NCBI RefSeq assembly: GCF_001522585.2
Contig: NZ_CP013372.1
Location: forward strand, 1,736,001-1,800,000
Length of the DNA: 64,000 bases
Direction: 5' to 3'
From: Burkholderia sp. NRF60-BP8
GTDB taxonomy: Bacteria; Pseudomonadota; Gammaproteobacteria; Burkholderiales; Burkholderiaceae
In this document: in pieces, positions 42,854-62,980 of the stretch
How the letters are laid out: each line of letters opens with the position of its first letter
Numbering within the stretch: position 1 is the first letter of the stretch
Translations under genes and position numbers: made by a program
Notes under the pieces: model-generated
Told to the model about the DNA's origin: nothing
Seen by the model: the letters and a program-made list of their open reading frames with translations, nothing else
Databases searched by the model: none

Positions 42854-43333
42854 TCACGGCATGCGCGCCGCCGACGCCGGTGCGGCCGCCGCCGCGTCGG
42901 GATTGGGCGCGAGCCGCAGGCGCACGCGCAACGGCTGCAGCATGTCCGGCGGCGGCGGCTCGGTCAGCGGGCCGGCCGTCAGCAGTTGTCGCAGCGTCGC
43001 GTCCGCGTCCGGATCGCCGAGCGACGCGAATTCGACGCGCGTGACGACGCCGTTCGCGCCGATCCACGCACGCACGACGATCGCGGGCGGCGGCGCATCG
43101 GCGCGCGCGTTCAGCACGCGCGTCTCGAGATAGCGGTGGAGCCGATCGGCCGCGTCGCCGTCCGCTTCGAGCCACGTCTGGAACTGCTGCCCGGCGAGCT
43201 GGCCATAGCGGATCCACGCTTGCGGCACGTCGGCCGTCTGCGCGACGGCCGGGGCCGCGCCCGCGGCCAGCACCGACGCGACGACGATCGCCCCCAGCCA
43301 TCCCGATGCGCGCTGCTTGCGCATTCGCTTCAT
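42854..43333 (-). CDS. Exported TonB-C-like protein
   Basis: A 159-residue protein with a signal peptide (MKRMRKQRASGWLGAIVVASVLA, cleavage near AVA-Q). The mature part has AIVVRAWIGANGVVTRVEF and ends DMLQPLRVRLRL, the pattern of the TonB C-terminal fold. It shares this layout with the protein at 47118. It overlaps the DegQ-like protease gene by four bases and is the last gene of the envelope operon. Without an N-terminal anchor it cannot act as an ordinary TonB. Confidence 0.75.
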   Translation of the reverse strand: MKRMRKQRASGWLGAIVVASVLAAGAAPAVAQTADVPQAWIRYGQLAGQQFQTWLEADGDAADRLHRYLETRVLNARADAPPPAIVVRAWIGANGVVTRVEFASLGDPDADATLRQLLTAGPLTEPPPPDMLQPLRVRLRLAPNPDAAAAAPASAARMP

Positions 43334-44772
43334 CCCGCCTCCCGTTTCGACGACGAATCCGCCCGGCCGATCTCGATCGGCACATACAGCCGCGTGCCGC
43401 CACGCTGCACCAGCAGCGCGACGTTGCCGTGCGCGGCATCGATTCCGGCCATCAGCGCGCCGATGCTCGCGACCGGCACGCCATTGACCGACAGCACGGC
43501 ATCGCCGGGCTGCAACCCCGCGCGCGCCGCCTGGCCGCTCGCCTGTTCGACGACGAGGGCCTGGCCGACGCCGAGCCGCTGGCGCTCCTGCTCCGTCGCA
43601 GCCCGCAGCGCGAGCCCGAACCGCGCAGGCCCCTGTTCGCCGCCCGCCGACGCCGTGCCGCTGTCGAACGCGCCGACCGTCGCGATCACGTGCATCGCCC
43701 GGCCCGCGCGCCACACGAGCAGATCGGTTTGCCGGCCCGCCCGCATGGCCGCAACCATGCCGAGCAAATCCGCCGATTCCGCGACCGGCTTGCCGTCGAC
43801 CGCGAGCACGACGTCGCCCGCCTTCAGGCCCGCGCGCGCGGCCGGGCCGTCCGGCTCGACCATCGTGATCAGCGCACCGTCCGGGCTCGCGAGGCCGAAC
43901 GAACGCGCGAGCGCCTGGCTCACTTCCTGCAGGGCCACGCCGAGCCGGCCGCGCGTGACCTTGCCGGTGCGCAGCAACTGATCCTTCACGTCGAGCGCGA
44001 TGTCGATCGGAATCGCGAACGCGAGCCCCTGGTAGCCGCCCGTCTTCGAGAAGATCATCGAGTTGATCGCGATCACGCGGCCGCTCAGGTCGAACAGCGG
44101 GCCGCCCGAATTGCCGGGATTGATCGGCACGTCGGTCTGGATGAACGGAATCGCCTGCTCGCCGGGCAGGGAACGCGATTTCGCGCTGACGATGCCCTGC
44201 GTGACCGTATTCGCGAACCCGTACGGCGACCCGATGGCCATCACCCAGTCGCCGACCTCGGTGCGCGCCGGGTCGCCGGTCGCGACGACCGGCAGGTCGT
44301 GCGCGTCGATGCGGATCACCGCGACGTCGGATACGGGATCGCTGCCGATCACGCGCCCCTTGAACTGGCGCTTGTCGGTCAGCTTCACGTCGATGGCGAG
44401 CGCGTCGCCGACCACGTGCCGGTTGGTCAGGATCACGCCGTCCGCGCTCACGATGAAGCCGGAGCCGAGGCTCACCTCCTCGCGGTTGCCGATCACGCGC
44501 CGCGCGAGAAACGGCGCGAGCGGATGATCGGGCGCGATGCCGGGCGGCAACTGGATCCCCATCTGCGTGACTTCGCGCGTGACGCTGATGTTGACGACCG
44601 CCGGCCCGACGCGCCGCACGAGCGCCGCGAAGTTCGGCAGCGCAACCGTGGGCGTGCCGGCCCCCTGCACCGCGCGCTCGGCGCCGGTGGCCGCGCCGCA
44701 TGCGCAGGCGAGCGTCACAGCGAGCCCGGCCGCGAGCGCCGCCCCGCTGCCGATGTGCTTGCCCGATTTCAC
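43330..44772 (-). CDS. DegQ/HtrA-like periplasmic serine protease
   Basis: A 480-residue trypsin-like protease with two PDZ domains. The triad is His119 (TNRHVV), Asp149 (SDVAV) and Ser222 (NPGNSGGPL). A signal peptide is present (start at GTG, with GAGGAG just before it). PDZ1 is about residues 280-365 and PDZ2 about 385-470. Such proteases remove or refold damaged envelope proteins. In this operon it may serve the outer-membrane pores. Overlaps the following gene by four bases. Confidence 0.93.
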   Translation of the reverse strand: MKSGKHIGSGAALAAGLAVTLACACGAATGAERAVQGAGTPTVALPNFAALVRRVGPAVVNISVTREVTQMGIQLPPGIAPDHPLAPFLARRVIGNREEVSLGSGFIVSADGVILTNRHVVGDALAIDVKLTDKRQFKGRVIGSDPVSDVAVIRIDAHDLPVVATGDPARTEVGDWVMAIGSPYGFANTVTQGIVSAKSRSLPGEQAIPFIQTDVPINPGNSGGPLFDLSGRVIAINSMIFSKTGGYQGLAFAIPIDIALDVKDQLLRTGKVTRGRLGVALQEVSQALARSFGLASPDGALITMVEPDGPAARAGLKAGDVVLAVDGKPVAESADLLGMVAAMRAGRQTDLLVWRAGRAMHVIATVGAFDSGTASAGGEQGPARFGLALRAATEQERQRLGVGQALVVEQASGQAARAGLQPGDAVLSVNGVPVASIGALMAGIDAAHGNVALLVQRGGTRLYVPIEIGRADSSSKREAG

Positions 44773-44875
44773 GTTGCTGCTCCTCGTCGGTTCGCGCCGG
44801 TGCGCCACCGGCCCATGCCCGTTCCCCAACCGTTGGTCCGCCGCACCGTTCGCGTGCGGCGGCTGCACGAGCGCT

Positions 44876-45241
44876 TCACTTCGGCGGCACGGCAACCGGC
44901 GCATTCGGCCGTTGCGGCGTCACGGATTTGCCCCAGTTCGCGCCGAAGCGATTCCGCTCGGTCGACAGGTTGAACGTGCCGAGACGGTTCGACGGCTGCT
45001 TCGACAGCCGCTCCGAATCCGTTTGCGACGCGCCCGCCTGCGGCTCGGCCTTCGGCTTCAGTTGTTCGCTCAGGCAGTCGTACGACAGCGCGCGCTTGCC
45101 GTCGACTTCCGCGTCGACGCACACCGGCTTCGCGGCCGAGCCGGGCTCGGTCGCCGCCGCGCGGCCGCCCTGCGCATGCGCGCCGGCCGCCAGCAGCAGG
45201 CAGACGATCGCCGCCGCGATGCCGTTTCGTCGCCGCTTCAT
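44876..45241 (-). CDS. Small exported protein of unknown function
   Basis: A 121-residue protein with signal peptide (MKRRRNGIAAAIVCLLLAAGAHAQ). The mature part has two Cys (PVCVDAEV, YDCLSEQ) that may form a disulphide, followed by an extended, Pro-rich C-terminal end. GGAGGCG precedes the chosen start. No family recognised. Within the envelope operon, 103 bp before the protease gene. Confidence 0.65.
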   Translation of the reverse strand: MKRRRNGIAAAIVCLLLAAGAHAQGGRAAATEPGSAAKPVCVDAEVDGKRALSYDCLSEQLKPKAEPQAGASQTDSERLSKQPSNRLGTFNLSTERNRFGANWGKSVTPQRPNAPVAVPPK

Positions 45242-45281
45242 CCGCGCCTCCATCGGTAACGACGCCATCGCGCGCATGCCG

Positions 45282-46172
45282 TCATGCTCCCGTGCCGGCC
45301 GCCGGCGCACGGGCCAGGAAGCGCCCGAACGCCGCGCGATCGGCTGCGTCGACGGCCGGTTCGCCCGCATCGACATGCCGCGCCCATGCCTCGCGCATGC
45401 CGTCGACCGGCTGCCACGCGTGCACTTGCGCGCCGGTCGGATACGGCGTGACGAGCGGCTCCCGGTAGTCGACGCGAAACAGCGGCGCCGCGTCGTTGCC
45501 GGCCGTCCACAAATCGCCGACGTCGCGCACGCTCGCGTCGAACCAGAAGCGCACCCAGCGAACGGCTGGCGGGCGCGCATCGTCGGCCGGCGTACCGGCG
45601 GCCGGCATACCGGCTCCGGGCGTACCGGCTCCGGGCATACGGACGCCCGGCGCAGCGATGCCCGACGCATCCGGCACGCGCAGGAAACCGGCCAGGACGA
45701 GCAGCACGGCGGCGAGATCGTCGTCGCGCAACGTCCTGTACGACCAGAGATCCGCGACATCCGCGCACGAGATCACCGCGATGAAGCGCCCGATCGTGAG
45801 CGCGGGCCACGCGCGTCGCATCAGCGCGTAATGCCGCGGCCACTGCGCGATGAAACGGTCCCGATGACGAGCCGCGACCTGCACGTCGCGCGAGCCGCGA
45901 ATCGTCGGCTCCTCCGGTTGATACTGGCGTGTGGTGAGCACGCACTGCGCGGAACATCGCGCGCTGCGGTGCCGCGCATAGCCGCCCGCGCCGGGCAGCG
46001 GCTCCAGCGCGCCGAAGCACAGCGGACAATGCGTCGGCCACTCGCCGGGCCGGCCCGGCCACGGGTTCGCCTTCGGCATGCGCGGACGGTCGGAGGCGGC
46101 GGCGGAGCGACGACGCCCCGGCGTACGCGCGTCGGGCGCCTCGACGCGCGGCGTCGAACGGAGCGTGGCCAT
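45282..46172 (-). CDS. Unknown protein with CxxC pairs and internal repeat
   Basis: A 296-residue protein with CPLC near residue 49 and C-x3-C about 25 residues on, possibly a zinc site. A low-complexity segment (about residues 175-195) is made of five-residue units such as GAGTP and GAGMP, encoded by four 15-bp repeats at 45589-45648. No signal peptide. It lies 8 bp after the parvulin stop, inside the envelope operon. Function unknown; a later start at Met32 is possible. Confidence 0.6.
   Translation of the reverse strand: MATLRSTPRVEAPDARTPGRRRSAAASDRPRMPKANPWPGRPGEWPTHCPLCFGALEPLPGAGGYARHRSARCSAQCVLTTRQYQPEEPTIRGSRDVQVAARHRDRFIAQWPRHYALMRRAWPALTIGRFIAVISCADVADLWSYRTLRDDDLAAVLLVLAGFLRVPDASGIAAPGVRMPGAGTPGAGMPAAGTPADDARPPAVRWVRFWFDASVRDVGDLWTAGNDAAPLFRVDYREPLVTPYPTGAQVHAWQPVDGMREAWARHVDAGEPAVDAADRAAFGRFLARAPAAGTGA
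45589..45648 (-). repeat. Four 15-bp tandem repeats in coding region
   Basis: Four imperfect units of the form GGC(A/G)TACCGGCTCCG on the + strand. They encode pentapeptide repeats (GVRMP, GAGTP, GAGMP, AAGTP) and keep the frame. Copy number could vary between strains. Confidence 0.7.
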
Positions 46173-46180
46173 GAGCGCGC

Positions 46181-47071
46181 CTACCGGGCCGACGCGAGCG
46201 CTTTCTTCAGCGCGTCTTCGTTGATCGGGGCGTTCGCGGCCAGCTTCGCGAGATACGCCTGGGCATTCTGCTGCGTGCGCTGGGCGCGCAGCATCGCGCG
46301 CAGTTGCTCCTTCACGTCGGCCAGCGGACGCGGCGCGGCCGCGCGTATCTCGATCAGCTTCACGACGTGGAAACCGGCCGGTGTCTGGATCGGCGCGGAG
46401 ACCTGGCCCGGCTTCAACGCGTCGGCGGCCTGACGGACCGCCGGCACCATCAGCTGCTCGGGCACGAAACCGAGATCACCGCCGTTCGCGGCGCTCGCCT
46501 TGTCCTGCGAGTTCGCCTTCGCCAGCGCCGCGAAATCGCCGTTGCGCGCGCGGCTCGCGAGATCGGCGGCCTGCTTGCGCGCCTTGTCGAGCGTCGCGGC
46601 ATCCGCGTTCGGCGGCACCGCGACATAGATCTGCGCGACGTGCAGCGCACGCGGCGCCGTGAACGCCGCGCGGTTCTTGTCGTAGGCCGACTGGAGCTCC
46701 GCGTCCGACGGGTAGTCGGCCGGCGGCGCATTCACCGACGCGAGATAGCTGCGCACGACGATTTCGCGCTGCGCCTGCTCGACGGCTGCCTGCACCTGCG
46801 GCTGCCGGTCCCAGCCCTTCGACTTCGCCTCGGCCAGCACGGCCTTCTGCGCGAGCGTCGAGCGCACGACCTGGTCCAGCGCCGCGGGATCGGCCGCGAG
46901 GCGCTCGCGCCCTTCCGCGCTCACGGTCTTCAACAGCCCGGCGATGTCGGCCTGCGTGACCGACGCCTGCGCGGCGTTCGCGATCACGTCGTCCTGCGCG
47001 CATGCCGCGAGCGGCACGCCCAGCGCGAGAGCGCCCGCCACCATCGCCAGCATCTTCATCTTCGTCATCAT
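46181..47071 (-). CDS. Parvulin-type peptidyl-prolyl isomerase
   Basis: A 296-residue exported protein with a signal peptide and possible lipobox (VPLAACAQ). The parvulin (PpiC) domain is visible as ALHVAQIYVAVP followed by GGDLGFVPEQLMVPAVRQAADALKPGQVSAPIQTPAGFHVVKL. An N-terminal helical region (SurA-like) precedes it. It should act as a periplasmic chaperone or isomerase for outer-membrane proteins. Member of the envelope operon. Confidence 0.9.
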   Translation of the reverse strand: MMTKMKMLAMVAGALALGVPLAACAQDDVIANAAQASVTQADIAGLLKTVSAEGRERLAADPAALDQVVRSTLAQKAVLAEAKSKGWDRQPQVQAAVEQAQREIVVRSYLASVNAPPADYPSDAELQSAYDKNRAAFTAPRALHVAQIYVAVPPNADAATLDKARKQAADLASRARNGDFAALAKANSQDKASAANGGDLGFVPEQLMVPAVRQAADALKPGQVSAPIQTPAGFHVVKLIEIRAAAPRPLADVKEQLRAMLRAQRTQQNAQAYLAKLAANAPINEDALKKALASAR

Positions 47072-47117
47072 CGTTCGACTGCCCTCTCGATTGCTTCTTT
47101 CAAATACGGACGCCGTA

Positions 47118-47537
47118 TCAGCGTGCGTCCGTCAGCGCCACACGCAGCACGAGCGGTTGCGTCATCCCGCGCGGCGGCACCATGCCGATCTCCCTGCCGG
47201 CAAACGCTGCGTGCAGTGCGGCGTCGAGCACCGCCTGCCCGGCCGCCGCGCTGTCGACCCGCGTCACCCGCCCGCGCTGGTCGAGCCATGCGCGCACCGG
47301 CAGCACGGGCCCGTCGTCGCCGGCATCGGCCCGCGCGTCGGCCCAACGTTCGATGTCCGCGCGCAGTCGGCCCGCGGCCGCATCGTCGCCATCGAGCGCC
47401 GTCTGCAGCCACTGCGCGACGTGTTGCGCGTACGTGCGCCACGCGACAGGCGCGTCACCCGCGGCCGTCGCGTCGGCTCGCGTGCGGCCCGGCAGCCACG
47501 CGCGCAGCGCGGCACCGAGCCGGTGCGCGACGATCAC
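47118..47537 (-). CDS. TonB-C-like small protein
   Basis: A 139-residue protein starting at a GTG that overlaps the upstream stop (GTGA). Its C-terminal half has VLPVRAWLDQRGRVTRVD and ends PPRGMTQPLVLRVAL, close to the layout of the TonB-C-like protein at 42854. No signal peptide or anchor is seen with this start. It may be cytoplasmic or use a non-classical route. Confidence 0.65.
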   Translation of the reverse strand: MIVAHRLGAALRAWLPGRTRADATAAGDAPVAWRTYAQHVAQWLQTALDGDDAAAGRLRADIERWADARADAGDDGPVLPVRAWLDQRGRVTRVDSAAAGQAVLDAALHAAFAGREIGMVPPRGMTQPLVLRVALTDAR

Positions 47538-48106
47538 GATTGCGCGGCCGCTTCGACGGAGGCGGCCGTGGCGCGCGGCTCGCCGGCCGCCGCCCGCGCC
47601 GCCGCTTCCTGCTCGGCCATCGCGGGGCGGTTGCGCAGGTGCAGCAGGAATTCCTGGATCAACCGATCCCACAGCTCGACCGTCGAGCGCAGATAGCGCT
47701 CGGACACGCCGCCCGCGACGACGACGTCCATCTCCAGCGCAAGAAACTGCCCGTGGCTCGCAAGACGCGCGAAGCGCTTGGTGCGGTTCCAGTCCGCGAC
47801 GAGTTCGGCCGGCAATTCGCCCTGCACTTGCAGCACGCACGACAGCGTGTAGTCGATGTACGGCAGCGCGGCGAGCGGCGTGTCGGCGCCCTGCGGCGCG
47901 AGCGGCGCCGCCGGGTTGCCGAAGCGCACCGCGAAGCCGATGCCCTGGCTCGCGCTCATCAGTTGCACCGAGCCGTTCTGCTCGGCGGCCGTCACGCGGT
48001 AGCCGGCACGGCGCAGCACGTCGGCCAGATGGTCCGCGCTGATCGCTTCGATCGGCGCATCGTGTGCCGCGCGTTCGGCGCCGGCGTTCGGTTGCTGGTC
48101 TTGCAT
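47534..48106 (-). CDS. YbjN-like protein
   Basis: A 190-residue acidic protein with the YbjN-like core: ADHLADVLRRAGYRV at the start, LPYIDYTLSCVLQV and then WNRTKRFARLA. In the family the domain resembles a class I secretion chaperone. Start at MQDQQPN after GGGAGA; a longer reading lacks a ribosome site. It overlaps the TonB-C-like gene. A role as chaperone for the exported proteins of this operon fits the fold. Confidence 0.75.
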   Translation of the reverse strand: MQDQQPNAGAERAAHDAPIEAISADHLADVLRRAGYRVTAAEQNGSVQLMSASQGIGFAVRFGNPAAPLAPQGADTPLAALPYIDYTLSCVLQVQGELPAELVADWNRTKRFARLASHGQFLALEMDVVVAGGVSERYLRSTVELWDRLIQEFLLHLRNRPAMAEQEAAARAAAGEPRATAASVEAAAQS

Positions 48107-48165
48107 GTCGAGGTTCTCCCTGTTCGACGAGTCGATGGATTCCAATGCGATATCGGGCGGCACGC

Positions 48166-48843
48166 TCACGGCGCGCTCGCCGCCGATGCCGGTGCGGGTG
48201 CCGTGGTGGCCGCACGCGCGGCCGGATCGTACTTTCCCGCATACAACGCATCGCCGTAGCGCTGCGCGAGATCGTCGTACTTCACGCGGGCCGACTGCGC
48301 GAACGGCTGCCTCGACGCGAGGAACGTGCCGATCCCGACATGCTCGTACGCGTCGAGAATCTCGTGCCCGACGCGATACAGCTCGGCATTGTGTGCCTGG
48401 CAGGTTTTCAGTTGCGTGTCACGCGCGGCGACGTCCTTCTGCAGTTGCGCGTGCTGCGCATCGCGGGCGCGCGACACGGCAAGCAAGTCCTCATAGGACG
48501 CCTTGTATTTCGCGAGCGACTTCGCGTCCTGCTCGCGGCCGGCCCGCTCCTGCGCGAGCGCGCGCTTCGCGGCCGCCTCGGCGCCCGAGTCGCCGCGCGC
48601 CGCTGCAAGCTGGCCCTGCATCGCCTTCAGTTGCGCGAGCGCATCGTCGCGCTGCTTCTCGGCCGCCGCCTTGTCGCTCTGCAATTGCGCCTGACTGTCC
48701 TGCAACTGGCGCAGCTCCTGCACGGTCGAGCGCAGCTGGCTGCGCAGCTTGTCCTCGATGCTCTGCGCGTGCGCGCCGACGGCCGCGAACAACAGCGCGG
48801 CGGCGACGGCGGCCGCCGGCATCGTGCGAGTGATCGTATTCAT
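48166..48843 (-). CDS. Periplasmic coiled-coil protein
   Basis: A 225-residue exported protein: signal peptide MNTITRTMPAAAVAAALLFAAVGAHA, then about 110 residues of coiled coil rich in Gln, Lys, Glu and Ala (QLRSTVQELRQLQDSQAQLQ), then a globular end with one Cys and an Ala/Pro tail. The coiled coil suggests an oligomeric periplasmic spacer or adaptor. 12 bp after the porin stop. No family recognised with certainty. Confidence 0.75.
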   Translation of the reverse strand: MNTITRTMPAAAVAAALLFAAVGAHAQSIEDKLRSQLRSTVQELRQLQDSQAQLQSDKAAAEKQRDDALAQLKAMQGQLAAARGDSGAEAAAKRALAQERAGREQDAKSLAKYKASYEDLLAVSRARDAQHAQLQKDVAARDTQLKTCQAHNAELYRVGHEILDAYEHVGIGTFLASRQPFAQSARVKYDDLAQRYGDALYAGKYDPAARAATTAPAPASAASAP

Positions 48844-48855
48844 GCGCGGCTCCGG

Positions 48856-50667
48856 TCAGAAGCGAGCATTGAGCTCGATCTGCAGCACGTCGATCGACAC
48901 CGGCGGCCCGTACACTTCCTTCGAGCTCAGGTAGCGGGCCGACACCCACGTGTCGCGCGCGACCGCATAGGCTGCGCCGATCACGTAGCCGCGTGCGTTG
49001 GTGCCGCCGAGATGGAAATCGGGATCGTTGAACGCGTCGAGCACGGCGTCCGGCTGCAGGTACTTGTACGCGATCGAGAAATTCCACTGGCCCTTCTCGC
49101 GCGGCTCCGGCTCGCCGACCGTCGCCTTCGCGAGGAAGCCGTTCGGGCCGCTGCGATAGTCGGCCCGCGTCGCGTTCACCGACGTCGCTTCGTAGTTGTT
49201 GACCGGCAACGACGCCGCCGCGAACGCCTTGTTGTCGTTGTACGCGAGGTTGCGCACGTATTCGCCGTCCAGGCGCAGCTTGAAGCGGTCGGCCACGACG
49301 GTATCCCACTGCGCCTTCAGGTCGAGCAACCGGTAGTTGTATGCGAGCCCGAAGAGCTGCGGCTGCGGTGTCATCCCCGGCGCGAGGTTCGGGTTCTGCA
49401 CGATGTTGCGCAGCGCGATCAGCGTGTTGCCGCCCTGCATGAACGCGGGCGCCTCGTTGTCGGTGCTGCAGTTGGTCGCGCCGAGATACAGCGCGCACGG
49501 CGACGACAGCGTGCCGCGCATGTTCTGGAAGTCGTAGTACGCGACCGCACCGCGCAGCCGGTTCTTCGCGTCGATCTTCCAGTCGGCGCCGAACTGCGCG
49601 CCGAACATCCACTTCGTGTCGCTGCCGGCCTTGTCGGTGCTGTTCGACGGGAAGTTCTCGCCCGTGTACTGGATCGGGAACACGCCGAGCGTGCCGAACA
49701 GCGTGACGTCCGGATTCCACGGCAGCGCATGGCGCAGGTTCGCCGCGAGCCCGTCCATCATCAGGTCGTCGGAGAACACGAGGTCCGACTTGAAGAACGG
49801 ATTGTCGAAGCGGCCGGCCGTCAGGTTCAGCCACGGCGTCGGCTTGTACGCGAAGAACGCCTTGTTCAGCCAGATGTTCTTCTTCGCGAAGCCGCCGCCG
49901 GCGGTGGCCGTGGTCGACACCGGCCCGTTGTCGTTGCCGCTCGCGAGCTGGATGCCGGCCGTCATTTCGTCGGACAGCGTCGCGGTCACGCCGAGCCGCG
50001 CACGGTAGCGCAGCAGGTTGTTGCGGTTCTGCGTGGTGTTCTGCGTCGGCAACTGCGTCGTGTTGGTGTTCGGGTTGATGTCGAACCCGTTGCCCTGGTT
50101 GATCGCCGCGAAGTTCGTGACGTTGTTCGCGTTGCGGCTGCCGTAGAAGTGATACTCGTCGCGCACGCGCAGGTCGCCGTCGAGCTTGATGCGCGACACC
50201 CAGTCGGGGAACGTGTTCGGCTGCGCCCAGTTCTCGGCCTTCGCCTGTGCGATCACTTCCTGCTTCACCTGGTCGCGGATCTGGTCGCGCACAAGTTGCG
50301 GCACGTAAGGCACCGCGACGTCGCCCGGCTGCGTCGGCGGATTGACCACGCCGCCCGCGACGACCGGTGCGCCCGACCCGCGCGCGGCCCGCGCCTGCAC
50401 GGCCTCGGTGCGCGCCTCGCTGATCAGCTCGTTCGCATTCTGCTGCGTGAGCACGCCGCGCTTGACGAGCAGGTTGATCAGGTTGATCACCACGCTTTCC
50501 GTCGGCGCGGCCTTCCCCGATGCCGCCTGCGCCTCGAGCGATTGCGCCTGTGCGACGGACGCGCACGTCAGCCCCAGCGTCAGCACCGCCGCGCCGACGC
50601 GCGACAGGCGCGCGGGCGGCGCGCCGTTGCAGGGCACCCCGCCCCGTCCGTTCATCTTCCGAGTCAT
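48856..50667 (-). CDS. Large putative porin (Porin_5 type)
   Basis: A 603-residue outer-membrane protein. A signal peptide is followed by an N-terminal helical segment (NLINLLVKRGVLTQQNANELI) that resembles an oligomerisation helix, then a long beta barrel ending in ELNARF, the C-terminal Phe signature. The pattern matches the putative porin family PF16930. It lies between tonB and the coiled-coil gene; it may be the Ton-linked or TpsB-linked outer-membrane channel of this system. Confidence 0.88.
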   Translation of the reverse strand: MTRKMNGRGGVPCNGAPPARLSRVGAAVLTLGLTCASVAQAQSLEAQAASGKAAPTESVVINLINLLVKRGVLTQQNANELISEARTEAVQARAARGSGAPVVAGGVVNPPTQPGDVAVPYVPQLVRDQIRDQVKQEVIAQAKAENWAQPNTFPDWVSRIKLDGDLRVRDEYHFYGSRNANNVTNFAAINQGNGFDINPNTNTTQLPTQNTTQNRNNLLRYRARLGVTATLSDEMTAGIQLASGNDNGPVSTTATAGGGFAKKNIWLNKAFFAYKPTPWLNLTAGRFDNPFFKSDLVFSDDLMMDGLAANLRHALPWNPDVTLFGTLGVFPIQYTGENFPSNSTDKAGSDTKWMFGAQFGADWKIDAKNRLRGAVAYYDFQNMRGTLSSPCALYLGATNCSTDNEAPAFMQGGNTLIALRNIVQNPNLAPGMTPQPQLFGLAYNYRLLDLKAQWDTVVADRFKLRLDGEYVRNLAYNDNKAFAAASLPVNNYEATSVNATRADYRSGPNGFLAKATVGEPEPREKGQWNFSIAYKYLQPDAVLDAFNDPDFHLGGTNARGYVIGAAYAVARDTWVSARYLSSKEVYGPPVSIDVLQIELNARF

Positions 50668-50758
50668 CTAGTGCTCCGAACAATTTTCGTTTCTTTTCCG
50701 GCAGGATCCGTGCGACGGACCTGCCCCATGATTCTTTCGTGGTCTCTCTCGCGCATCG

Positions 50759-51457
50759 TCATGCCGGCTTGCGTCCCTGGAGCTTGACGAGCACCGGGTA
50801 CGACGTCGCCGGCGGCGGCACTTCGTCGACCTTGCCGAGCGCCTCGACCGCCGCGACGACCGCCGCATCGATCTTCGCGTCGCCGGTCGACTGCGCGACC
50901 GTCACCTTCGTGATCCGCCCCGACGCATCCATCCACAGGTTCAGGCTGCCGGCGAACCGCGCGCCGCCGACCTCCTGCACGCCCTTGTCCTGTTCGATCG
51001 CGCGCTGCAGCACGTACACCATGTACTGCGCATAGCTCGCGTTGCCGAACTTGCCGCCCCCGCCGCTGCCGACCATGCCCGAGCCGTCGCCCGCGCCGAT
51101 GTTGAAGCTGTCGGTGCCGGCCTGCGCGGGCGCGTTCATCGTCATCTGCTTCGGCTGGTTGTCCGACGGCTTCGGCGCCTCGGACGGCTTCGGCGCGATC
51201 GTCGGCCGCTCGACCGGCGTCTTGACCTCTTCCTTCACCTTCTCGGGCGGCGGCTTCTGCTTCGGCGGCGGCGGGGGCGGCGGCAACGGGATCACCGTCG
51301 TCACCTGCGGCGCGCTCGCGCGCTTCACGCCCGCGGTGTCCCCCGCGAAATGCCAGATCAGCGCGGCGAGCCCGGCGAGCACGAGCGCGAGCGCAACCGG
51401 CTTCACGAAACGGCCGGGGCCTTTCTGCGGCGGGCCGCCGTTGTAGGTCATTTCCAT
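50759..51457 (-). CDS. tonB: TonB energy transducer
   Basis: A 232-residue TonB: N-terminal helix (KPVALALVLAGLAALIWHF), Pro-rich spacer (PLPPPPPPPKQKPPPEK), Gly-rich segment and the TonB C-terminal domain (FAGSLNLWMDASGRITKV). It spans the periplasm to transmit proton-motive energy to outer-membrane partners. Separated from exbD by 4 bp and followed by the porin. A dedicated TonB for this cluster is likely. Confidence 0.92.
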   Translation of the reverse strand: MEMTYNGGPPQKGPGRFVKPVALALVLAGLAALIWHFAGDTAGVKRASAPQVTTVIPLPPPPPPPKQKPPPEKVKEEVKTPVERPTIAPKPSEAPKPSDNQPKQMTMNAPAQAGTDSFNIGAGDGSGMVGSGGGGKFGNASYAQYMVYVLQRAIEQDKGVQEVGGARFAGSLNLWMDASGRITKVTVAQSTGDAKIDAAVVAAVEALGKVDEVPPPATSYPVLVKLQGRKPA

Positions 51458-51461
51458 CGCG

Positions 51462-51872
51462 TCAGCCGCCCTGCTTCGCCTTGCCGGTCACGAGCCCGAC
51501 CTGCGACAGGTCGAGCCGGCGCAGCAGGTCGAGCACGTCCATGACCTTCTGGTACTGCACGGCTGCGTCGCCCTTCAGCACGATCGGGAATTCCGGATTG
51601 GTCGCCTTCTCGGTGCGCAAGCGGCTTTCGAGCTCGTCCATCGTCACCGGATACGCGTCGAGGAACACCTGCCCCGAATCGGCGACCGTGATCGCCTTCG
51701 TCTTCGGTTTCGCGAGGCTCGCGGACGAGCTCGCCTTCGGCAGGTCGACCTTGATGCCCTGCACCGACGCGGTCGTCATGATGATGAAGATGATCAGCAG
51801 CACGTACGCGAGGTCGAGCATCGGCGTGATGTTGATGTCGTCGTACGGCTTGTCGTCGTCCTGAACCTGCAT
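51462..51872 (-). CDS. exbD: ExbD/TolR family biopolymer transporter
   Basis: A 136-residue ExbD: DINITPMLDLAYVLLIIFI holds the membrane Asp needed for proton flow, then a periplasmic domain ending VGLVTGKAKQGG. Length and layout fit ExbD. It lies between the ExbB-like gene and tonB, giving an ExbB-ExbD-TonB set. Confidence 0.93.
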   Translation of the reverse strand: MQVQDDDKPYDDINITPMLDLAYVLLIIFIIMTTASVQGIKVDLPKASSSASLAKPKTKAITVADSGQVFLDAYPVTMDELESRLRTEKATNPEFPIVLKGDAAVQYQKVMDVLDLLRRLDLSQVGLVTGKAKQGG

Positions 51873-51891
51873 GGTGGTCTCCTGCGTGCGT

Positions 51892-53697
51892 TCAGTCGGC
51901 CAGCACCGCGTGGTCGGGCGCGCGATGCGCTTCGGCCAGGCGCGTGACGAATTCGTCGACGAACACCTGCATGTTCGCGGTCACGTTCTTGTTGCGGATC
52001 AGCAGGTAGTTGTAGCCGAACAGCGCGGGAATCGCGACGAACAGGCCCGTGACGGTGGCGAGCAGCGCGGCCGCGATACCCGGTGCGATCGCGTTCACGT
52101 TCACGTCGCCGGCCGCCGCGATCGCCGCGAACGTGATCATCACGCCGACCACCGTGCCGAGCAGGCCGAGGAACGGGCCGCCCGAGATCGCGATCGTCAG
52201 CAGTACCATCGATTTCGACAGCCGCTGGTTCTCGCGCACGAGCGTCGCGTCCATCGACGCGCGGATCGCCTCGATCGATTCGGACGTGATCACCGTGCGG
52301 CCGTTGCCGTCCACGCGGCTGTGAATTTCATGCACGCCGGCCTTGTACAGCCGGTACAGCGACGACTGGTACAGGCGCCGTCCTTCCGCGCTGCCTTCGT
52401 CGACGTGCGCGAGGCCGATCAGGTGACGCCCGGCCACTTCGCGGAAACGCTGCACGAAATACTGGTTCGCCTTGTCGACGGTGCCGACGTAGCGTGCCTT
52501 CGTCCACATCACGATCCACGACACGAGCGCCATCCCGAGCAGGATCGTGATCACGACCCACGCGTCGACGGTCACCGACTGCACGATCACGCCGAAGTAG
52601 CCGAAGCCGAAGCCCGACTGCTTCTCGTCGGCGCCGTACGCGACCAGCTTCGATTCCGAGCCTTGCGCGAGCGCGTCGACCGCGATCGCGGCCGGCGAAC
52701 GCGCGATCTTCGACAGACGCAGTTCGTCGAGCGCGCCCGCATACGCGGCAAAGCCGGCCGGTGCGCCGGGCGCATCCGCGCCGATCGTCGTCACGCCGTT
52801 CAGCGCGGGCAGCGTTGCCGCGACCTGCGACACCTGCTTGCCGTTCGCGTAGACGGTCAGGTTCTTGCCGTCGGCCGTGACCGCGACATACGTCCACTGG
52901 TTCGCGGCGACCGGCGACGCGGCCGGCGTGCGCACCGGCGCCGGATTGCCGGCCGCGCCCTGGACTTCCGCGAACGGCACGCCGTTGTCGAGGCCGATCA
53001 GCAGCGCGTTCGCGCCGTCGCGGCGACCGTACAGCAGCGTGTTCGGCGCGAGCGCCGACGGCTTGACCCATGCGCTGAACGTGAAGCTGCCGCCGGCCGG
53101 CACGTTCAGCGACGGGCTCGCCGGCAGCGTCAGCGACCCCGTGCCGTCGAACCGCGCGCCCTTGCCGACGATGCCGTCCTCGATCGTGCGGAACGACGCG
53201 TTCTGCGCGTGGTTGCCGTACGCGGTCGCGTCCTTCGGCGGGGCGCCGGCCGCGCCGTTGAAGTGATAGACGAGCGTGTAGTCGGGGTCGAACGTCTCGG
53301 CCGGCTTGCCGCCGTCCGGCGCCTTCTTGTTGCCGTAGTACATCCAGATCGACTCCGCGGCGCCGGCCGGCAGCTTCGGCACGTCGACCCAGATCAGCGC
53401 GACGCCGAGCACCGGATCGTATTGCTCGACATGGAAGTTCAGCGGCGTCTTGTCGTCGGCCGCGACGAAGCGGATGTCGGCGCCGTTGTCGGCCAGCCCG
53501 TCGAACTGGAAGTTGCCCGAATGCAGGCGAATCAGCAGCGGCACGCGGCCGGCCGATTCCGCGAGGTTCGCGCCCTTCGGGCTCGCGTCGATCGTGATCG
53601 CCTTTCGGTACGACCAGTCGTTCTGCCACCATGCGTTCGCGATGCCGGGCAGCACGCCGAGCATCACCGCCAACAGGAAAAACAAGACTCGCTTCAC
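51892..53697 (-). CDS. ExbB/MotA-TolQ channel with N-terminal DUF2341-LamG region
   Basis: A 601-residue fusion. A signal peptide (start at GTG) leads to a DUF2341 region (about 60-125). A LamG/concanavalin-like domain follows (about 140-330, with FTFSAWVKP and GALDELRLS), then a membrane helix near 370 and a C-terminal MotA/TolQ/ExbB domain (about 430-590, with GGPFLGLLGTVVGVM and the helix PGIAAALLATVTGLFVAIPA). Normal ExbB has only the last part. The sugar-binding-like domain would face the periplasm. 19 bp before exbD. Confidence 0.9.
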   Translation of the reverse strand: MKRVLFFLLAVMLGVLPGIANAWWQNDWSYRKAITIDASPKGANLAESAGRVPLLIRLHSGNFQFDGLADNGADIRFVAADDKTPLNFHVEQYDPVLGVALIWVDVPKLPAGAAESIWMYYGNKKAPDGGKPAETFDPDYTLVYHFNGAAGAPPKDATAYGNHAQNASFRTIEDGIVGKGARFDGTGSLTLPASPSLNVPAGGSFTFSAWVKPSALAPNTLLYGRRDGANALLIGLDNGVPFAEVQGAAGNPAPVRTPAASPVAANQWTYVAVTADGKNLTVYANGKQVSQVAATLPALNGVTTIGADAPGAPAGFAAYAGALDELRLSKIARSPAAIAVDALAQGSESKLVAYGADEKQSGFGFGYFGVIVQSVTVDAWVVITILLGMALVSWIVMWTKARYVGTVDKANQYFVQRFREVAGRHLIGLAHVDEGSAEGRRLYQSSLYRLYKAGVHEIHSRVDGNGRTVITSESIEAIRASMDATLVRENQRLSKSMVLLTIAISGGPFLGLLGTVVGVMITFAAIAAAGDVNVNAIAPGIAAALLATVTGLFVAIPALFGYNYLLIRNKNVTANMQVFVDEFVTRLAEAHRAPDHAVLAD

Positions 53698-53762
53698 GAT
53701 CCACTCCCCGAATGGGCGGGCGCCGCGCTCGTCGCATCGCCCCGCCACGAACAAAAAATCCG

Positions 53763-55418
53763 TCAGAAACCCAGCCTTACGTAGAAATCGAACCGCGGGC
53801 TGTACTGCCGCGTGTAGACGCCGGCCTTCAACGGCCAGCCGGCCTCGAAATCCGCGCTCGCGTATTTCATGAGCTGCAGCCGCGTGCCGACGCCGACGCT
53901 CATCAGGTTGAAGCGCGACGTCTGCTCCGGCAGCGGGCTCAGCAGCCACAGGTGCGCCGCGTCGAAGAACGCATGGAAGCGCCATTCGTTCACCCGGCTG
54001 CCGACCGCGCCGCCGAGCCACTTCGACAGCGACGGGCTGCGCAACTCCAGCGACGCGATCACGCCGCTGTCGGCCGTGTCTTCCGCCTGCATGTAGCCGC
54101 GCACGCTGTTCATCCCGCCGGCGGCGAACTGCTCGCTCGACACGAGCGGCGAGTTCGAGATCTGCCCGCTCACGTGCGCATTGGCCTGCATGTCGTTCGC
54201 GAAGCGCTGCGTGTGATTCACGTCGAACTTGCCGTACACGAAATCTGGCGTCGCGTTGTAGCGCTTGTTGTCCCACGCGCCCCAGTCGCTGCCGAGGCCG
54301 CGGATGTTCGTCGTCAGCGACGCGGAGAACGACGTCTGCGAGTTCTTCAGGCTCAGCTGGCCGTTGTACGACAGCGTCACCGGCACGTAAGTGAGCGGCG
54401 CCGTCGAGCCGCCCTGGCCCGGCAGCGACACGTCTTCGTCGTAGTGCTTGCGGTCGATCTCGATGCTGACCGTATGCGCGTAGGTCTCCGTCGCCGGCAG
54501 CGAATAGATCGCGGTGAAGCCGTAGGTAGTGCCCTTGCCGAGCACGTTGGTGTTGCCGACCGACGCGACGTTGCTGTCCGAATGCACGACCGTCGCCAGA
54601 AAGCTCCAGCGCGAATCCTTGATCGGCGCGAGATACGAGAACGCGTAGACGCGCGCATCGTTCGGATGCTGCGGCGCGATCACGTAGGTGCCGGAAATCA
54701 CGTGGCCGAGCTGCCACAGATTCGAATAGCTGAGGCTCGCAGTCGTGCGCAGCGTCGACGTGCCGGGGCTGTTGTCGTTGTTCAGTTCGAGCGAGCCGTG
54801 CAGCGGGCTGTGATCGTCGACCTTCAGGTCGACGTCGACCGTCTGCGGCAGCGCGCCCGGCTTCAGCACCGGAATCACCTGGCGGTCCGCCGAGCGGTTC
54901 AGGTCGGTGAGCTGCTGCTGGGCCTGATTGAAATCGGGCACCTTGCCTTCGGCCAGCGCGGGCACCGCGTCGCGGATGTTCTGCGGCGAGTTGTATTGCG
55001 CGCCGTCCACGCGCAGACGCCCGACCTTCGCCTCGGTCACCTGCAGCAGGATCACGCCGTTCTTCACCTGCTGCTGCGGCAACTCGACGACGACCGACTG
55101 GTAGCCGCGATCCTGATACGCCTTCTGCAACGCATCGCGGGCCGCGTTCACGTCGGCGAGCGTGCGGCCCGGCCCTTCGAACGGATACACGGCCTTCTCG
55201 ATCTCGAGCGTCGGCAACGTCGTGTTGCCGCGCACCACGAAGGCATTCACGTCGAACGACTGCGGCGCGGCGGGCGCCGCCTTCGCGGCCGGCGCGGCAG
55301 CGTCCTGCGCATGAACGCCCGGAGCGACGCTCAAGCCTCCGGCCAGCACGGCACCGGCCAGGCATCGGCCATTCAGCCGCCATCGTTCGCGTGACTTGCG
55401 GTCTACTCTCGGCGGCAT
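53763..55418 (-). CDS. TpsB-type outer-membrane transporter (ShlB/FhaC/HecB family)
   Basis: A 551-residue protein with a signal peptide, two POTRA domains (about 53-130 and 135-205; SFDVNAFVVRGNTTLP and KVGRLRVDGAQYNSP), and a 16-strand barrel ending in YVRLGF. This is the architecture of two-partner secretion pores. No TpsA substrate lies nearby. First gene of the envelope operon, 65 bp before the ExbB fusion. It could secrete a distant TpsA or serve a different export task. Confidence 0.92.
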   Translation of the reverse strand: MPPRVDRKSRERWRLNGRCLAGAVLAGGLSVAPGVHAQDAAAPAAKAAPAAPQSFDVNAFVVRGNTTLPTLEIEKAVYPFEGPGRTLADVNAARDALQKAYQDRGYQSVVVELPQQQVKNGVILLQVTEAKVGRLRVDGAQYNSPQNIRDAVPALAEGKVPDFNQAQQQLTDLNRSADRQVIPVLKPGALPQTVDVDLKVDDHSPLHGSLELNNDNSPGTSTLRTTASLSYSNLWQLGHVISGTYVIAPQHPNDARVYAFSYLAPIKDSRWSFLATVVHSDSNVASVGNTNVLGKGTTYGFTAIYSLPATETYAHTVSIEIDRKHYDEDVSLPGQGGSTAPLTYVPVTLSYNGQLSLKNSQTSFSASLTTNIRGLGSDWGAWDNKRYNATPDFVYGKFDVNHTQRFANDMQANAHVSGQISNSPLVSSEQFAAGGMNSVRGYMQAEDTADSGVIASLELRSPSLSKWLGGAVGSRVNEWRFHAFFDAAHLWLLSPLPEQTSRFNLMSVGVGTRLQLMKYASADFEAGWPLKAGVYTRQYSPRFDFYVRLGF

Positions 55419-55525: not shown

Positions 55526-55569
55526 CTTATCATGATCCGCGCAATGCCTTTCATGCCGTCGAGCCGAAC

Positions 55570-56217
55570 TTAGCCGCGATGCGTCGGCGCCGCCTGCGCA
55601 TCCGCTTGACAACCGAACTGCGTCACGGCGAATTGCAACAGCGTATCGACGCACGTCGCGAGCGATGCGCGGCCGGTATCGAGCGTGAGATCGGCTTTCA
55701 CCGGCGGTTCGTACGGCGCCGACACACCGGTGAATTCCGGCAGTGCGCCGCACCGCGCCTTCGCATACAGCCCTTTCGGATCCCGCGCCTCGCAGCACGC
55801 CAGCGGCGTGCTCACATACACCTCACGGAACGCCGGCCCGACGATCGCTCTCGCCGCATCGCGCATCGCCGCGAGCGGCGAAATGACCGCGACGATCGCC
55901 AGCGCGCCGGATTCGCTCGTCAGTGCCGCGACTTCCGCGATGCGCCGCACGTTTTCGAAACGGTCCTGCACCGTAAAACCGAGATCCCGATTCAGCCCCG
56001 TACGCAGCCGGTCGCCGTCGAGCACCACCGGATGCATGCGTCGTTCGCGCAGTCGCGCCGCTACCGCATCGGCCAGCGTCGTCTTGCCCGCCCCCGACAA
56101 GCCGGTGAGCCACAACACTCCGCCGGCCCGCCGTGGCGACACGCGCCGCTCGTCGCGGGGCACGTCTACCGATAAGGACGAAACGACGTCGGGAAACCCG
56201 CAACGATCGATCTTCAT
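55570..56217 (-). CDS. cysC: Adenylylsulfate kinase
   Basis: A 215-residue APS kinase. Walker A is GLSGAGKTT (39-47); further motifs are LDGDRLRTGLNRDLGF and the substrate segment DPKGLYAKARCG. It makes PAPS, the sulfuryl donor for sulfotransferases. It overlaps the TIGR03032 gene by four bases. The rest of the sulfate-assimilation genes are not here, so a dedicated role in sulfation of an exported product is possible. Confidence 0.95.
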   Translation of the reverse strand: MKIDRCGFPDVVSSLSVDVPRDERRVSPRRAGGVLWLTGLSGAGKTTLADAVAARLRERRMHPVVLDGDRLRTGLNRDLGFTVQDRFENVRRIAEVAALTSESGALAIVAVISPLAAMRDAARAIVGPAFREVYVSTPLACCEARDPKGLYAKARCGALPEFTGVSAPYEPPVKADLTLDTGRASLATCVDTLLQFAVTQFGCQADAQAAPTHRG

Positions 56218-57389
56218 CGCGCACGCTCCGCCGCCTTCGCGGGTTCGTCGTCCTCGCGCGGACGCGTCTGCCAGAAGCCGCCCTGCATCGTCACGATCGA
56301 CGGCGTCTCGGCCCATTGATGCGGGCTCAGGATTTCGGCACGCCGCACGTTCGGGATCACCTGCACGTCGAAGATCTCGTCGACGCCGTTGAAGAACTGC
56401 AGGATGCCGAGCACGTCGCCGGTGTTCGCGTCGAGCGCGGCGACCCCCGCGACCAGCGCATCCGATTCGCTTTCGATCGGCAGCCCCTGCGGGCCGCGTT
56501 TGTCGCGCAACTTCGACAGCCCGACGAACAGCACGCCCCCGTATTCGGCGAGACCGTGCGTGAAGCCCGGCAGTTTCGCGAGCACGCGCCGCGCGCCCGA
56601 CTGCGGATCGATCTGCAGCACGTGGCCGCGGCCGCCTTCGAGCACGTGCAGGCGTCCGCCGATCACGCGCGGCGAATGCGGCATCGACAGCCCCGATGCG
56701 ACGATCCGGCCGGACGGCACCTCCATCACGATGCCGCCGTCGGCCATCCCGCTGCGCCAGCCGAACGGCTCGTTGCTCATGCCGAGCGCCGTCGCGAACC
56801 GCACCTTGCCGTCGGCGAACGCCATGCCGTTCAGGTGGCAGCGATCGTCCGGCACGGTCTCCGTCACGAACGGCGGCTGCCAGATCGGCGTGAAGTTGAA
56901 ATAGCCGTCGATCACGCTGATGCAGGAATAGCGTGTGTTGACCGCGAGCACGATGTGCTTGTCGAACGCCATGTCGTGCAGGTCGAGATCGCCCGTGTAA
57001 TAGGCCATGCGCGGCACGAACATCGCGTCGTAGTGATCCGGTCGAGCAGGATAGCGCGGCGCGAGCGTCGATACGTTCGCGAACACCATCAGCTCGTGCA
57101 TCGTCGCGATCGCGAGCCGCTTGCCCGACACGGCCATCCCCATCGAGCGCGGCAACAGGCACGCGGACAGCGTGGGCACGCCGTCGTCGACGCCGATCAC
57201 GGCCACGCCGGACGGGCGGCGGCTCACGGCCAGCGAGCACCCGAGCGCCTCGAGCACCTGCAGGAAGCGCCCGGTGTCGCGCAGGTTGATGACTGGCGAC
57301 AACGCTTCCGCCTGCCGCGCCGATACGTCGTCCGTCGGCGCATCGGTTTCGCCCGCCGGCCGGATTTCCTCGAACTGTTCCACTGTCAT
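56214..57389 (-). CDS. TIGR03032/DUF4915 family protein
   Basis: A 391-residue protein that looks like a beta propeller, with repeated strands ending in short loops (GMAFADGKVRFATAL, GGRLHVLEGGRGHVLQIDP, YGGVLFVGLSKLRDKRG). It matches the TIGR03032 family, whose role is unknown but which often sits with sulfotransferases or TPR proteins. Start at MTVEQFEE. Coupled to cysC by a four-base overlap. Confidence 0.85.
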   Translation of the reverse strand: MTVEQFEEIRPAGETDAPTDDVSARQAEALSPVINLRDTGRFLQVLEALGCSLAVSRRPSGVAVIGVDDGVPTLSACLLPRSMGMAVSGKRLAIATMHELMVFANVSTLAPRYPARPDHYDAMFVPRMAYYTGDLDLHDMAFDKHIVLAVNTRYSCISVIDGYFNFTPIWQPPFVTETVPDDRCHLNGMAFADGKVRFATALGMSNEPFGWRSGMADGGIVMEVPSGRIVASGLSMPHSPRVIGGRLHVLEGGRGHVLQIDPQSGARRVLAKLPGFTHGLAEYGGVLFVGLSKLRDKRGPQGLPIESESDALVAGVAALDANTGDVLGILQFFNGVDEIFDVQVIPNVRRAEILSPHQWAETPSIVTMQGGFWQTRPREDDEPAKAAERAR

Positions 57390-62970: not shown

Positions 62971-62980
62971 TCAGCTCAGC
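62934..62980. repeat. (GCTCA)9 pentanucleotide microsatellite
   Basis: Nine perfect GCTCA units (TGAGC on the minus strand) plus a partial unit. On the minus strand the array begins in the last codons and stop (TGA) of the FecR gene. The unit of five bases makes it slippage-prone. Confidence 0.95.

Follow-up and report, generated by a model that had tools for sequence, protein, structure and literature searches.

The genome of Burkholderia sp. NRF60-BP8 encodes, in the 64,000-nucleotide stretch of DNA analysed here (the window), a two-partner secretion pore (TpsB) together with an ExbB-ExbD-TonB motor, and the DUF2341-LamG-ExbB fusion of this motor pairs near-perfectly with a class of giant TpsA proteins that carry DUF3739 near the C-terminus. 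The pairing is new, while the gene set is already known from P. aeruginosa and is found here as a Burkholderia copy. Our main reading, which we hold at a probability of about 0.6, is that the locus forms an outer-membrane export station of the PdtAB/PUMA3 kind, in which a dedicated Ton motor aids the export or surface handling of the DUF3739 TpsA.

The gene cluster and its TpsA

The thirteen tightly packed minus-strand genes of the preliminary description, running from TpsB to a TonB-C-like protein, were recovered from gene coordinates and Pfam matches, with intergenic gaps of 4-103 bp and three 4-bp overlaps. The cluster, its neighbours and the TpsA gene are as follows (PA numbers are P. aeruginosa counterparts; the window ends at C1:1800000):

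53763..55418, minus: TpsB, Omp85/ShlB family, 551 aa (Pfam ShlB 86 bits, POTRA_2 63 bits)
51892..53697, minus: DUF2341-LamG-ExbB fusion, 601 aa (Pfam DUF2341, Laminin_G_3 and MotA_ExbB)
51462..51872, minus: ExbD, 136 aa, with the transmembrane Asp motif (Pfam 99.6 bits)
50759..51457, minus: TonB, 232 aa (Pfam TonB_2 24.4 bits, cut-off 22; NCBIfam TIGR01352 28.1 bits, cut-off 27.1)
48856..50667, minus: Porin_5 putative porin, 603 aa, PA0696 (Pfam 634 bits)
48166..48843, minus: exported coiled-coil protein, 225 aa, PA0697 by position (no Pfam match over cut-off)
47534..48169, minus: YbjN-family protein, 211 aa, PA0698 (Pfam 34 bits)
47118..47537, minus: TonB-C-like protein 1, 139 aa (iterated profile; no Pfam or NCBIfam family)
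46181..47071, minus: parvulin (PpiC-type) isomerase, 296 aa, PA0699 (Pfam Rotamase 83 bits)
45282..46172, minus: Cys-rich protein, 296 aa, lineage-specific operon tail (no Pfam or NCBIfam family)
44876..45241, minus: small exported protein, 121 aa, signal peptide by eye (ORF; no Pfam family)
43330..44772, minus: DegQ-like protease, 480 aa (Pfam Trypsin_2 and two PDZ)
42854..43333, minus: TonB-C-like protein 2, 159 aa, signal peptide by eye (tblastn; no Pfam or NCBIfam family)
55570..56202, minus: CysC-type APS kinase, upstream of tpsB (Pfam APS_kinase 190 bits)
56214..57506, minus: DUF4915 protein, upstream of cysC (Pfam 321 bits)
59638..61272, minus: PhdA-like gene (DDE_Tnp_1 27.2 bits, cut-off 23; PhdYeFM_antitox 21.4 bits, below its cut-off of 29.8)
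62971..63981, minus: FecR-type anti-sigma factor, VreR counterpart (Pfam FecR)
C1:1799978-1800526, from the window end outwards: ECF sigma gene, VreI-type (Pfam Sigma70_r4_2)
C1:1806489-1819376, minus: TpsA, 4,295 aa (ORF)

The start sites used are 44772 for DegQ, as the most likely one, a GTG at 53697 for the ExbB fusion and 45241 for the small exported gene. TonB combines a transmembrane helix (by eye), a proline-rich stretch and a C-terminal domain. An iterated profile of TonB-C-like protein 1 matches the TonB proteins of two related loci, L044 (74 bits) and L116 (57 bits), and tblastn aligns TonB-C-like protein 2 with the C-terminal parts of TonB genes in L045, L053, L054 and L056 (E 2e-4 to 2e-7). 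A consensus scan of positions 42500-57700, which is weak evidence in such DNA, gave no internal promoters above chance that would split the cluster: a single promoter-like site against a mean of 0.7 in shuffles, lying on the plus strand upstream of TpsB, and eight terminator-like sites against a mean of 8.9. A PBP_like_2 gene and T2SS genes also lie near the cluster.

The absence of a TpsA gene from the window, as first reported, is literally true but misleading, being a window-edge effect, as the 4,295-aa TpsA lies 6.5 kb past the window end. Its N-terminal TPS domain (PF05860, 57 bits) maps to C1:1818348-1818803, and it carries DUF3739 near the C-terminus. With this TpsA located just beyond the edge, an orphan TpsB was rejected, and the two proteins are putative partners by position.

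The system had been called undescribed; however, it matches the P. aeruginosa PUMA3-regulon unit phdA-pdtB-exbB2D2-tonB4-PA0696-PA0701 (PMC2729926, PMC7035377, PMC4971064), a gene set known in that species since 2009, when the same arrangement was also noted in B. vietnamiensis (PMC2729926). The published gene descriptions of the unit agree with the genes of the window (PMC7035377), and, judged from its domains and location, the gene at 59638..61272 is the counterpart of PA0691/PhdA. In P. aeruginosa, a single promoter drives transcription of the unit, which is controlled by phosphate starvation (PMC4971064); as late as 2020 the Ton part was described as 'still uncharacterized' (PMC7035377). 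A protein search with a Pseudomonas fusion returned no P. aeruginosa-named entry among the best 120 of 1,756. Scanning the window and two further loci (L138, L139) with a consensus, allowing up to 3 mismatches, gave no Pho box, and Pho-box control of the cluster finds no support in these sequences, where a strict match was missing.

The FecR and ECF sigma genes adjoining the unit bring in the possibility that the role of the Ton motor is to signal from the cell surface to this VreR/VreI-type pair and not transport, in keeping with the description of PUMA3 as a cell-surface signalling system (PMC2729926). We consider this very improbable: the would-be receptor VreA is dispensable for sigma activation in P. 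aeruginosa (PMC7035377), and no VreA receptor-like protein was recognised between the FecR and PhdA-like genes.

Conservation of the unit and pairing with DUF3739 TpsA

The ExbB fusion served as the anchor for collecting related loci. Out of at least 168 confirmed relatives, the best 80 make up the named loci, which lean towards close relatives, and the 94 listed loci hold two duplicate pairs (L050/L099, L055/L084), leaving 92 distinct. TpsB lies in the same cluster as the fusion in 89 of the 94 (87/92 distinct), so that an ExbB-ExbD-TonB part regularly occurring without TpsB, which would have spoken against the proposed link, is not what is seen. Among the five exceptions, L056, L127 and L130 are truncated where short contigs end, and for L044 and L116 a TpsB of the same subfamily and a DUF3739 TpsA are located on another contig. 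The genome of L056 (G284) gave no ShlB match, though fusion and DUF3739 are present, which counts against our main reading.

The order TpsB-ExbB-ExbD-TonB-Porin_5-coiled coil was found again in distant bacteria, and therefore the arrangement is not due to chance; the association extends to Bradyrhizobium, Sphingomonas, Verrucomicrobia MAGs and an Anaeromyxobacter MAG. For L109, L114, L117, L118, L125, L128, L132, L133, L134 and L136, adjacency was read off by eye from agreeing contig coordinates and strands. A second layout has TpsA ahead of ExbB. Two genomes with a split cluster, G268 and G400 (L116), retain all core parts, and a scan with the fusion alignment gave no relatives on viral contigs. 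The gene-order comparison thus supports the view that TpsB and the Ton motor form one conserved unit.

The accessory genes are less constant. The coiled-coil protein occurs in 77 of the 94 listed loci, the parvulin in 46 and YbjN in 42, and the ExbD Asp motif is present in all 94. DegQ (6/94) and the Cys-rich protein (5/94) were found only in loci of the genus Burkholderia and of Paraburkholderia, and CysC and DUF4915 in 3/94 and 5/94, respectively. Conservation of the built-in quality control proposed at first is thus partial.

To what extent the fusion and its TpsA occur together was counted in two genome samples, which overlap in five positive genomes. Among 398 genomes of the phylum, the fusion (>200 bits, a cut-off separating 228.9 bits, the score of a fragment, from 104.6 bits) and DUF3739 were found in the same 14, while ShlB-type pores were found in 157. 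The 349 genomes of the order comprised 38 with both, one with DUF3739 only, three with the fusion only and 307 with neither (Fisher p 4e-46, a test that ignores relatedness). When the samples were pooled, DUF3739 occurred in 48 genomes, the fusion in 50 and both in 47.

Porin_5 is likewise present in 89 of the 94 listed loci, as a rule adjoining TonB, and since it is as constant as TpsB, co-occurrence cannot tell which outer-membrane protein is the client of the motor. The motor might instead power uptake through Porin_5, of a nutrient released near TpsA or of a phosphorus compound, with TpsA capturing a surface ligand like HxuA/HxuB/HxuC does for haem, a precedent given in PMC5422565. Import is the usual process energised by TonB systems, and the phosphate-starvation control of the P. 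aeruginosa unit (PMC4971064) and the nearby PBP_like_2 gene speak for uptake through the porin; the missing strict Pho box in the window, L138 and L139 speaks against it. The split clusters point both ways: G400 keeps the porin together with the motor, and TpsB and TpsA lie elsewhere, whereas in G268 the porin accompanies TpsB and TpsA, apart from ExbB-ExbD-TonB. To our knowledge, moreover, Porin_5 is not a family of plugged TonB-dependent transporters, and we regard uptake through the porin as unlikely, if still a serious competitor.

Less probable again is that the genes are merely co-regulated, two-partner secretion being energy-free as in the rest of type V and the Ton motor fulfilling some separate envelope function during the same stress. 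An electrochemical gradient is considered unnecessary for type V translocation, and transport of TpsA into liposomes can proceed with no external energy (PMC5422565). A T2SS also belongs to the P. aeruginosa regulon (PMC2729926), and T2SS genes are near the window's cluster as well. However, the TpsB-Ton association persists in the Bradyrhizobium, Sphingomonas, Verrucomicrobia MAG and Anaeromyxobacter MAG loci, in which the CysC, DUF4915, Cys-rich and DegQ neighbours were not found, and the near one-to-one pairing of the fusion with a single TpsA class also argues against mere co-regulation. A P. aeruginosa mutant in a tonB homologue kept VreI-induced virulence in zebrafish; since the tpsA and tpsB mutants did likewise, this test says little (PMC2729926).

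Pore, motor and a possible contact point

The AF2 model of TpsB (pLDDT 85.3) comprises a signal peptide, a short unstructured stretch, two POTRA domains and a barrel in which we counted 16 strands. Residues 1-49 score below 50, POTRA1 starts at residue 55, and in this one protein no plug helix is predicted before POTRA1, the only helix there being that of the signal peptide (10-29); such an N-terminal plug helix is a feature of solved type Vb members. In some relatives the low-complexity stretch at the N-terminus is longer. By eye, this end of TpsB is variable and shows no conserved TonB box, and a box at this place was therefore rejected. Foldseek ranks CdiB and FhaC at the top, which are also the closest by sequence. 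In a tree with 20 hand-picked others, two of which start late, the 43 Ton-linked TpsBs formed a single clade (support 0.998; L001 was excluded, having a partial ORF only). The PDB relatives of the ExbB fusion are LamG-fold chains at profile positions ~140-350 and TolQ/ExbB at ~367-581, suggesting lectin-fold domains ahead of a TolQ/ExbB-type proton channel.

Of 49 distinct TpsA tails, 42 carry a VxV-L-G-F-G-like motif (against a mean of 0.44 in shuffles of the 52 tails), the pattern having been derived from 32 tails, all matching, and 12 of 19 further distinct tails matching. C-terminal matches of 150 bits or less, namely one short L065 ORF and secondary matches, were dropped. The motif stretch has low AF2 confidence, and the predicted disorder may reflect a shallow alignment (24 rows). 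The motif does not fit the classical TonB box. A conserved Cys pair in the tail as a tether was rejected, since the pair is not conserved.

Gene content and order, co-occurrence and the TpsB clade are what the comparisons show; we infer the client of the motor, TpsB/TpsA rather than the porin, and the step that it drives. In the export station that we favour, which would serve the giant TpsA class, TpsA would pass through Sec and then the barrel of TpsB, and TonB would supply proton-motive force for a late step. This step might be to open or clear the pore, to draw the end of the chain through it, or to control the displayed adhesin. Porin_5, the coiled-coil protein, YbjN and the parvulin may assist, and in Burkholderia also DegQ. 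The contact point might, as a guess, be the conserved motif of the TpsA tail. A more specific version, tentative and rather doubtful at present, is a proton-motive-force-driven type Vb subclass in which the beta-strand motif of the flexible tail would stay periplasmic and be gripped by the dedicated TonB like the TonB box of a receptor, so that the motor with its lectin-fold ExbB could pull or control the adhesin via the plugless TpsB.

The strict pairing of TpsB and motor in the genomes examined questions the textbook view of motor-free export. A review of the field lists as an open question how very large proteins are driven across TpsB pores without ATP or a usable gradient (PMC5422565). 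The widespread, near-exclusive pairing of one giant TpsA class with a private Ton motor offers a natural setting for measuring export once the motor is taken away, with the DUF3739 link and the motif of the tail pointing to the substrate and the residues worth examining.

Comparison with known systems

PUMA3/PdtAB, compared from published descriptions only, shares with the window the gene order tpsB, exbB, exbD, tonB, porin, unknown exported protein, YbjN and PpiC, as well as an upstream PhdA-like gene, FecR and ECF sigma neighbours, nearby T2SS genes and a large TpsA in a separate unit. The window differs in having CysC and DUF4915 upstream of tpsB, a TonB-C-like gene between YbjN and PpiC, and a downstream tail of Cys-rich protein, small exported protein, DegQ and a second TonB-C-like protein. 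FhaC/FhaB and CdiB/CdiA likewise combine POTRA_2 and a ShlB barrel with a TpsA bearing a TPS domain; in contrast to these, the pore of the window has no predicted plug helix and falls, in the set compared, in a separate TpsB clade, its TpsA carries DUF3739, and a dedicated Ton motor is encoded in the unit.

The ExbB channel, the transmembrane Asp of ExbD and the C-terminal domain of TonB are shared with TonB-ExbB-ExbD import systems, whereas the ExbB of the window bears DUF2341-LamG and is linked to an exporter; Pfam gave no TonB-dependent receptor among the scanned genes of the unit. SiiE, the client of SiiAB, is a giant adhesin. A motor driven by proton-motive force and dedicated to secretion is also found in GldLM/SprB (type IX), where proton-driven adhesin secretion is known (PMC8986121), and in SiiAB (type I; PMC12204202). 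The secretion routes of these two are unrelated, while the window combines a type Vb TpsB pore with a Ton-type motor.

Gene content of the unit and its surroundings

As laid out in the preliminary description, thirteen consecutive genes lie on the minus strand at 42854-55418, with spacings of 4-103 bp or 4-bp overlaps. Pfam identified a TpsB pore, a DUF2341-LamG-ExbB fusion protein, ExbD, TonB, a Porin_5 porin, YbjN, a parvulin and a DegQ-like protease, and found no match above cut-off for the coiled-coil, Cys-rich, small exported and two TonB-C-like proteins. In a 2025 paper, DUF2341 is named as an appendage that ExbB-like proteins carry, with no known function (PMC12505986). The surroundings of the unit contain the following features:

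42275-42754, minus strand: 159-aa gene directly downstream of the unit, full-length match to NCBIfam T6SS_VF_TecA (328 bits, cut-off 220)
55570-57506, minus strand: CysC and DUF4915 genes, upstream of tpsB on the strand of the unit
59638-61272: PhdA-like gene, whose transposase-like product also matches Phd/YefM weakly
61224-62267, plus strand: ORF flanked by the PhdA-like gene and the FecR gene; its codon composition is gene-like, and it has no Pfam match
62411-62662, minus strand: DUF4880 alone in an 83-aa protein, downstream of the complete FecR gene, whose N-terminal domain is the same domain
62935-62980, minus strand: about nine copies of the 5-bp repeat GAGCT, beginning at the FecR stop codon
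62971-63981, minus strand: FecR anti-sigma factor

An ECF sigma factor gene lies at the end of the window and extends outside it, and K-, H-, F- and I-type T2SS genes are dispersed across the region. Judged by its family description, the gene directly downstream of the unit would encode a type VI effector deamidase.

That no TpsA gene is present holds literally for the window, but not for the 7.08-Mb genome. On the contig of the window (C1, with the window at 1736001-1800000), a search outside the window found a 4,295-aa TpsA ORF at C1:1806489-1819376, on the same strand as the unit, with a TPS domain at C1:1818348-1818803 and a DUF3739 domain close to its C-terminus (residues 4088-4196, 124 bits). 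Directly upstream of it are three TPR proteins (stretch L138:1443-8215, minus strand), of which one exceeds the cut-off for glycosyltransferase-9 and another falls just short of it. The three are candidates for adhesin modification, in which case one might speculate that the LamG fold of the ExbB fusion reads sugars. A PBP_like_2 protein (stretch L139:10755-12167, plus strand) adjoins T2SS genes and TpsA, and is possibly a T2SS cargo.

Conservation of the cluster and its pairing with DUF3739 TpsAs

The cluster was compared across 94 loci anchored on the ExbB fusion, consisting of 14 stretches from a phylum sample (13 genomes, the window's own genome excluded) and the best 80 of 168 named relatives; two duplicate pairs leave 92 distinct loci. 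In these 14 stretches and best 80 of 168 relatives, profiles found ExbD in 94, TonB in 92 and the Porin_5 porin in 89 of the 94 loci, TpsB and the coiled-coil protein each in 77 of the 94 fetched stretches, the parvulin in 46/94, YbjN in 42/94, DegQ in 6/94, the Cys-rich protein and DUF4915 in 5/94 each, and CysC (APS kinase) in 3/94. The ExbD Asp motif was present in all 94. The APS kinase/DUF4915 pair is a Burkholderia-side addition, for which a role in sulfation might be speculated. Gene order and strand, sought in other genomes as the preliminary description had suggested, are largely kept across the same loci, with exceptions that include L104, L116, L126, L129 and L131. Seventeen loci lack TpsB in the fetched stretch, and in 12 of them the pore lies farther out, past a giant TpsA. 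This places TpsB in the same cluster in 89/94 loci (87/92 distinct), thus the Ton motor (ExbB fusion, ExbD and TonB) does not regularly occur without TpsB, an outcome that had been named as speaking against a joint system.

Three of the loci without a clustered TpsB (L056, L127 and L130) are truncated by short contigs, and in L127 the end of a DUF3739 TpsA precedes ExbB. The remaining two, L044 and L116, come from genomes with a split cluster. In the split genome G268, one contig carries TpsB, the porin, the coiled-coil protein and a DUF3739 TpsA, and another carries ExbB-ExbD-TonB; in G400, ExbB-ExbD-TonB stand together with the coiled-coil protein and the porin, with TpsB and the DUF3739 TpsA elsewhere. 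Zero ShlB matches were found genome-wide in G284, the genome of L056, which fits poorly with the TpsB association and may reflect a gap in this draft genome. Several extra TonB-C-like ORFs, besides the operon TonB, surround the cluster in Bradyrhizobium (L084 and its duplicate L055) and Rhodoblastus (L092).

The cluster is linked to one TpsA class, the DUF3739 type. DUF3739 occurs in 14 of 398 phylum genomes, the same 14 that have the ExbB fusion (bits >200), and ShlB-type pores occur in 157 of the 398. Among 349 genomes of the order sample, DUF3739 was found in 39, the fusion in 41 and both in 38 (Fisher p = 4e-46, relatedness being ignored). The sole DUF3739-only genome, G531, has its DUF3739 at a contig edge, and the fusion-only genomes G454, G654 and G699 are assemblies of 160-520 contigs with completeness of 84%, 70% and 91%, respectively. 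A single fusion cluster can be accompanied by several DUF3739 TpsAs (three in G379, three in G200 and two in G284), and G155 has two of each.

The TpsB pore and the TpsA tail

The 43 Ton-linked TpsBs form one clade (support 0.998), separate from 20 hand-picked other TpsBs, and the TpsBs of both split genomes fall inside it. For the TpsB of the window, AF2 gave a model (pLDDT 85.3, alignment of 41 sequences) with two POTRA domains and a barrel on which 16 strands were counted, and CdiB and FhaC take the top Foldseek ranks. According to PMC5422565, a helix plugs the barrels of type Vb systems. A plug helix is not predicted here, because the only modelled helix before POTRA1, which starts at residue 55, is the signal peptide. 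By eye, no conserved TonB box was seen at the mature TpsB N-terminus.

Common to the C-termini of DUF3739 TpsAs are the end of a solenoid, a linker rich in Ala (27%) and a short motif, for example VEVLGFG. The tail pattern was derived from 32 tails, all of which match, and was found in 13 of 20 later tails (12 of 19 distinct new ones), amounting to 45/52 overall (42/49 distinct) against a shuffle mean of 0.44 of 52. By eye, the seven non-matching tails comprise near variants (L143, L152, L153, L156 and L158) and poor fits (L151 and L157). The AF2 model of the C-terminus from locus L086 (24 rows, mean pLDDT 73.8) is of low confidence from about residue 227, and pLDDT stays below 50 along the stretch that holds the motif, in which V270 and G276 are near-invariant. 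Because of this position in a low-confidence tail, the motif looks, in the model, less like a part of the solenoid than like a linear motif for recognition.

Possible role of the motor and relation to known clusters

The comparison shows a single conserved set of genes, a single class of TpsA and, among the TpsBs compared, a single clade. We infer that the Ton motor probably acts on the TpsB/TpsA exporter, and our guess is that TonB would grip the TpsA tail. The main rival reading is that the motor serves the Porin_5 porin instead, and this porin is as constant as TpsB (89/94 loci each, in the 14 stretches and best 80 of 168 relatives); since the splits in G268 and G400 differ, they do not indicate the outer-membrane partner of the motor. 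The published work bears on an energised exporter in both directions. In vitro, TpsA translocation proceeds without added energy, which disfavours an energised pore (PMC5422565), and proton-driven motors serve other secretion systems, which favours energised export (PMC8986121, PMC12204202). A zebrafish test is not decisive, because tonB-homologue, tpsA and tpsB mutants were all wild-type virulent (PMC2729926).

The unit had been proposed as an undescribed system, yet the operon is already known: the same cluster has been published for P. aeruginosa (PMC4971064) and B. vietnamiensis (PMC2729926). In P. aeruginosa, the phdA promoter transcribes phdA, pdtB, exbB2D2, tonB4 and PA0696-PA0701, and pdtA has a promoter of its own (PMC4971064). 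The arrangement in B. vietnamiensis is described in PMC2729926, and this is the layout at the present locus. The likeness to the PUMA3/PdtAB cluster is judged on published descriptions. In the open-licence literature searched, available as partial texts, we found neither a link between the Ton motor and DUF3739 TpsAs nor a discussion of Ton-driven type Vb export, and the term 'DUF3739' was absent. Relative to the known operon, what is new is the co-occurrence of its ExbB fusion with DUF3739 TpsAs.
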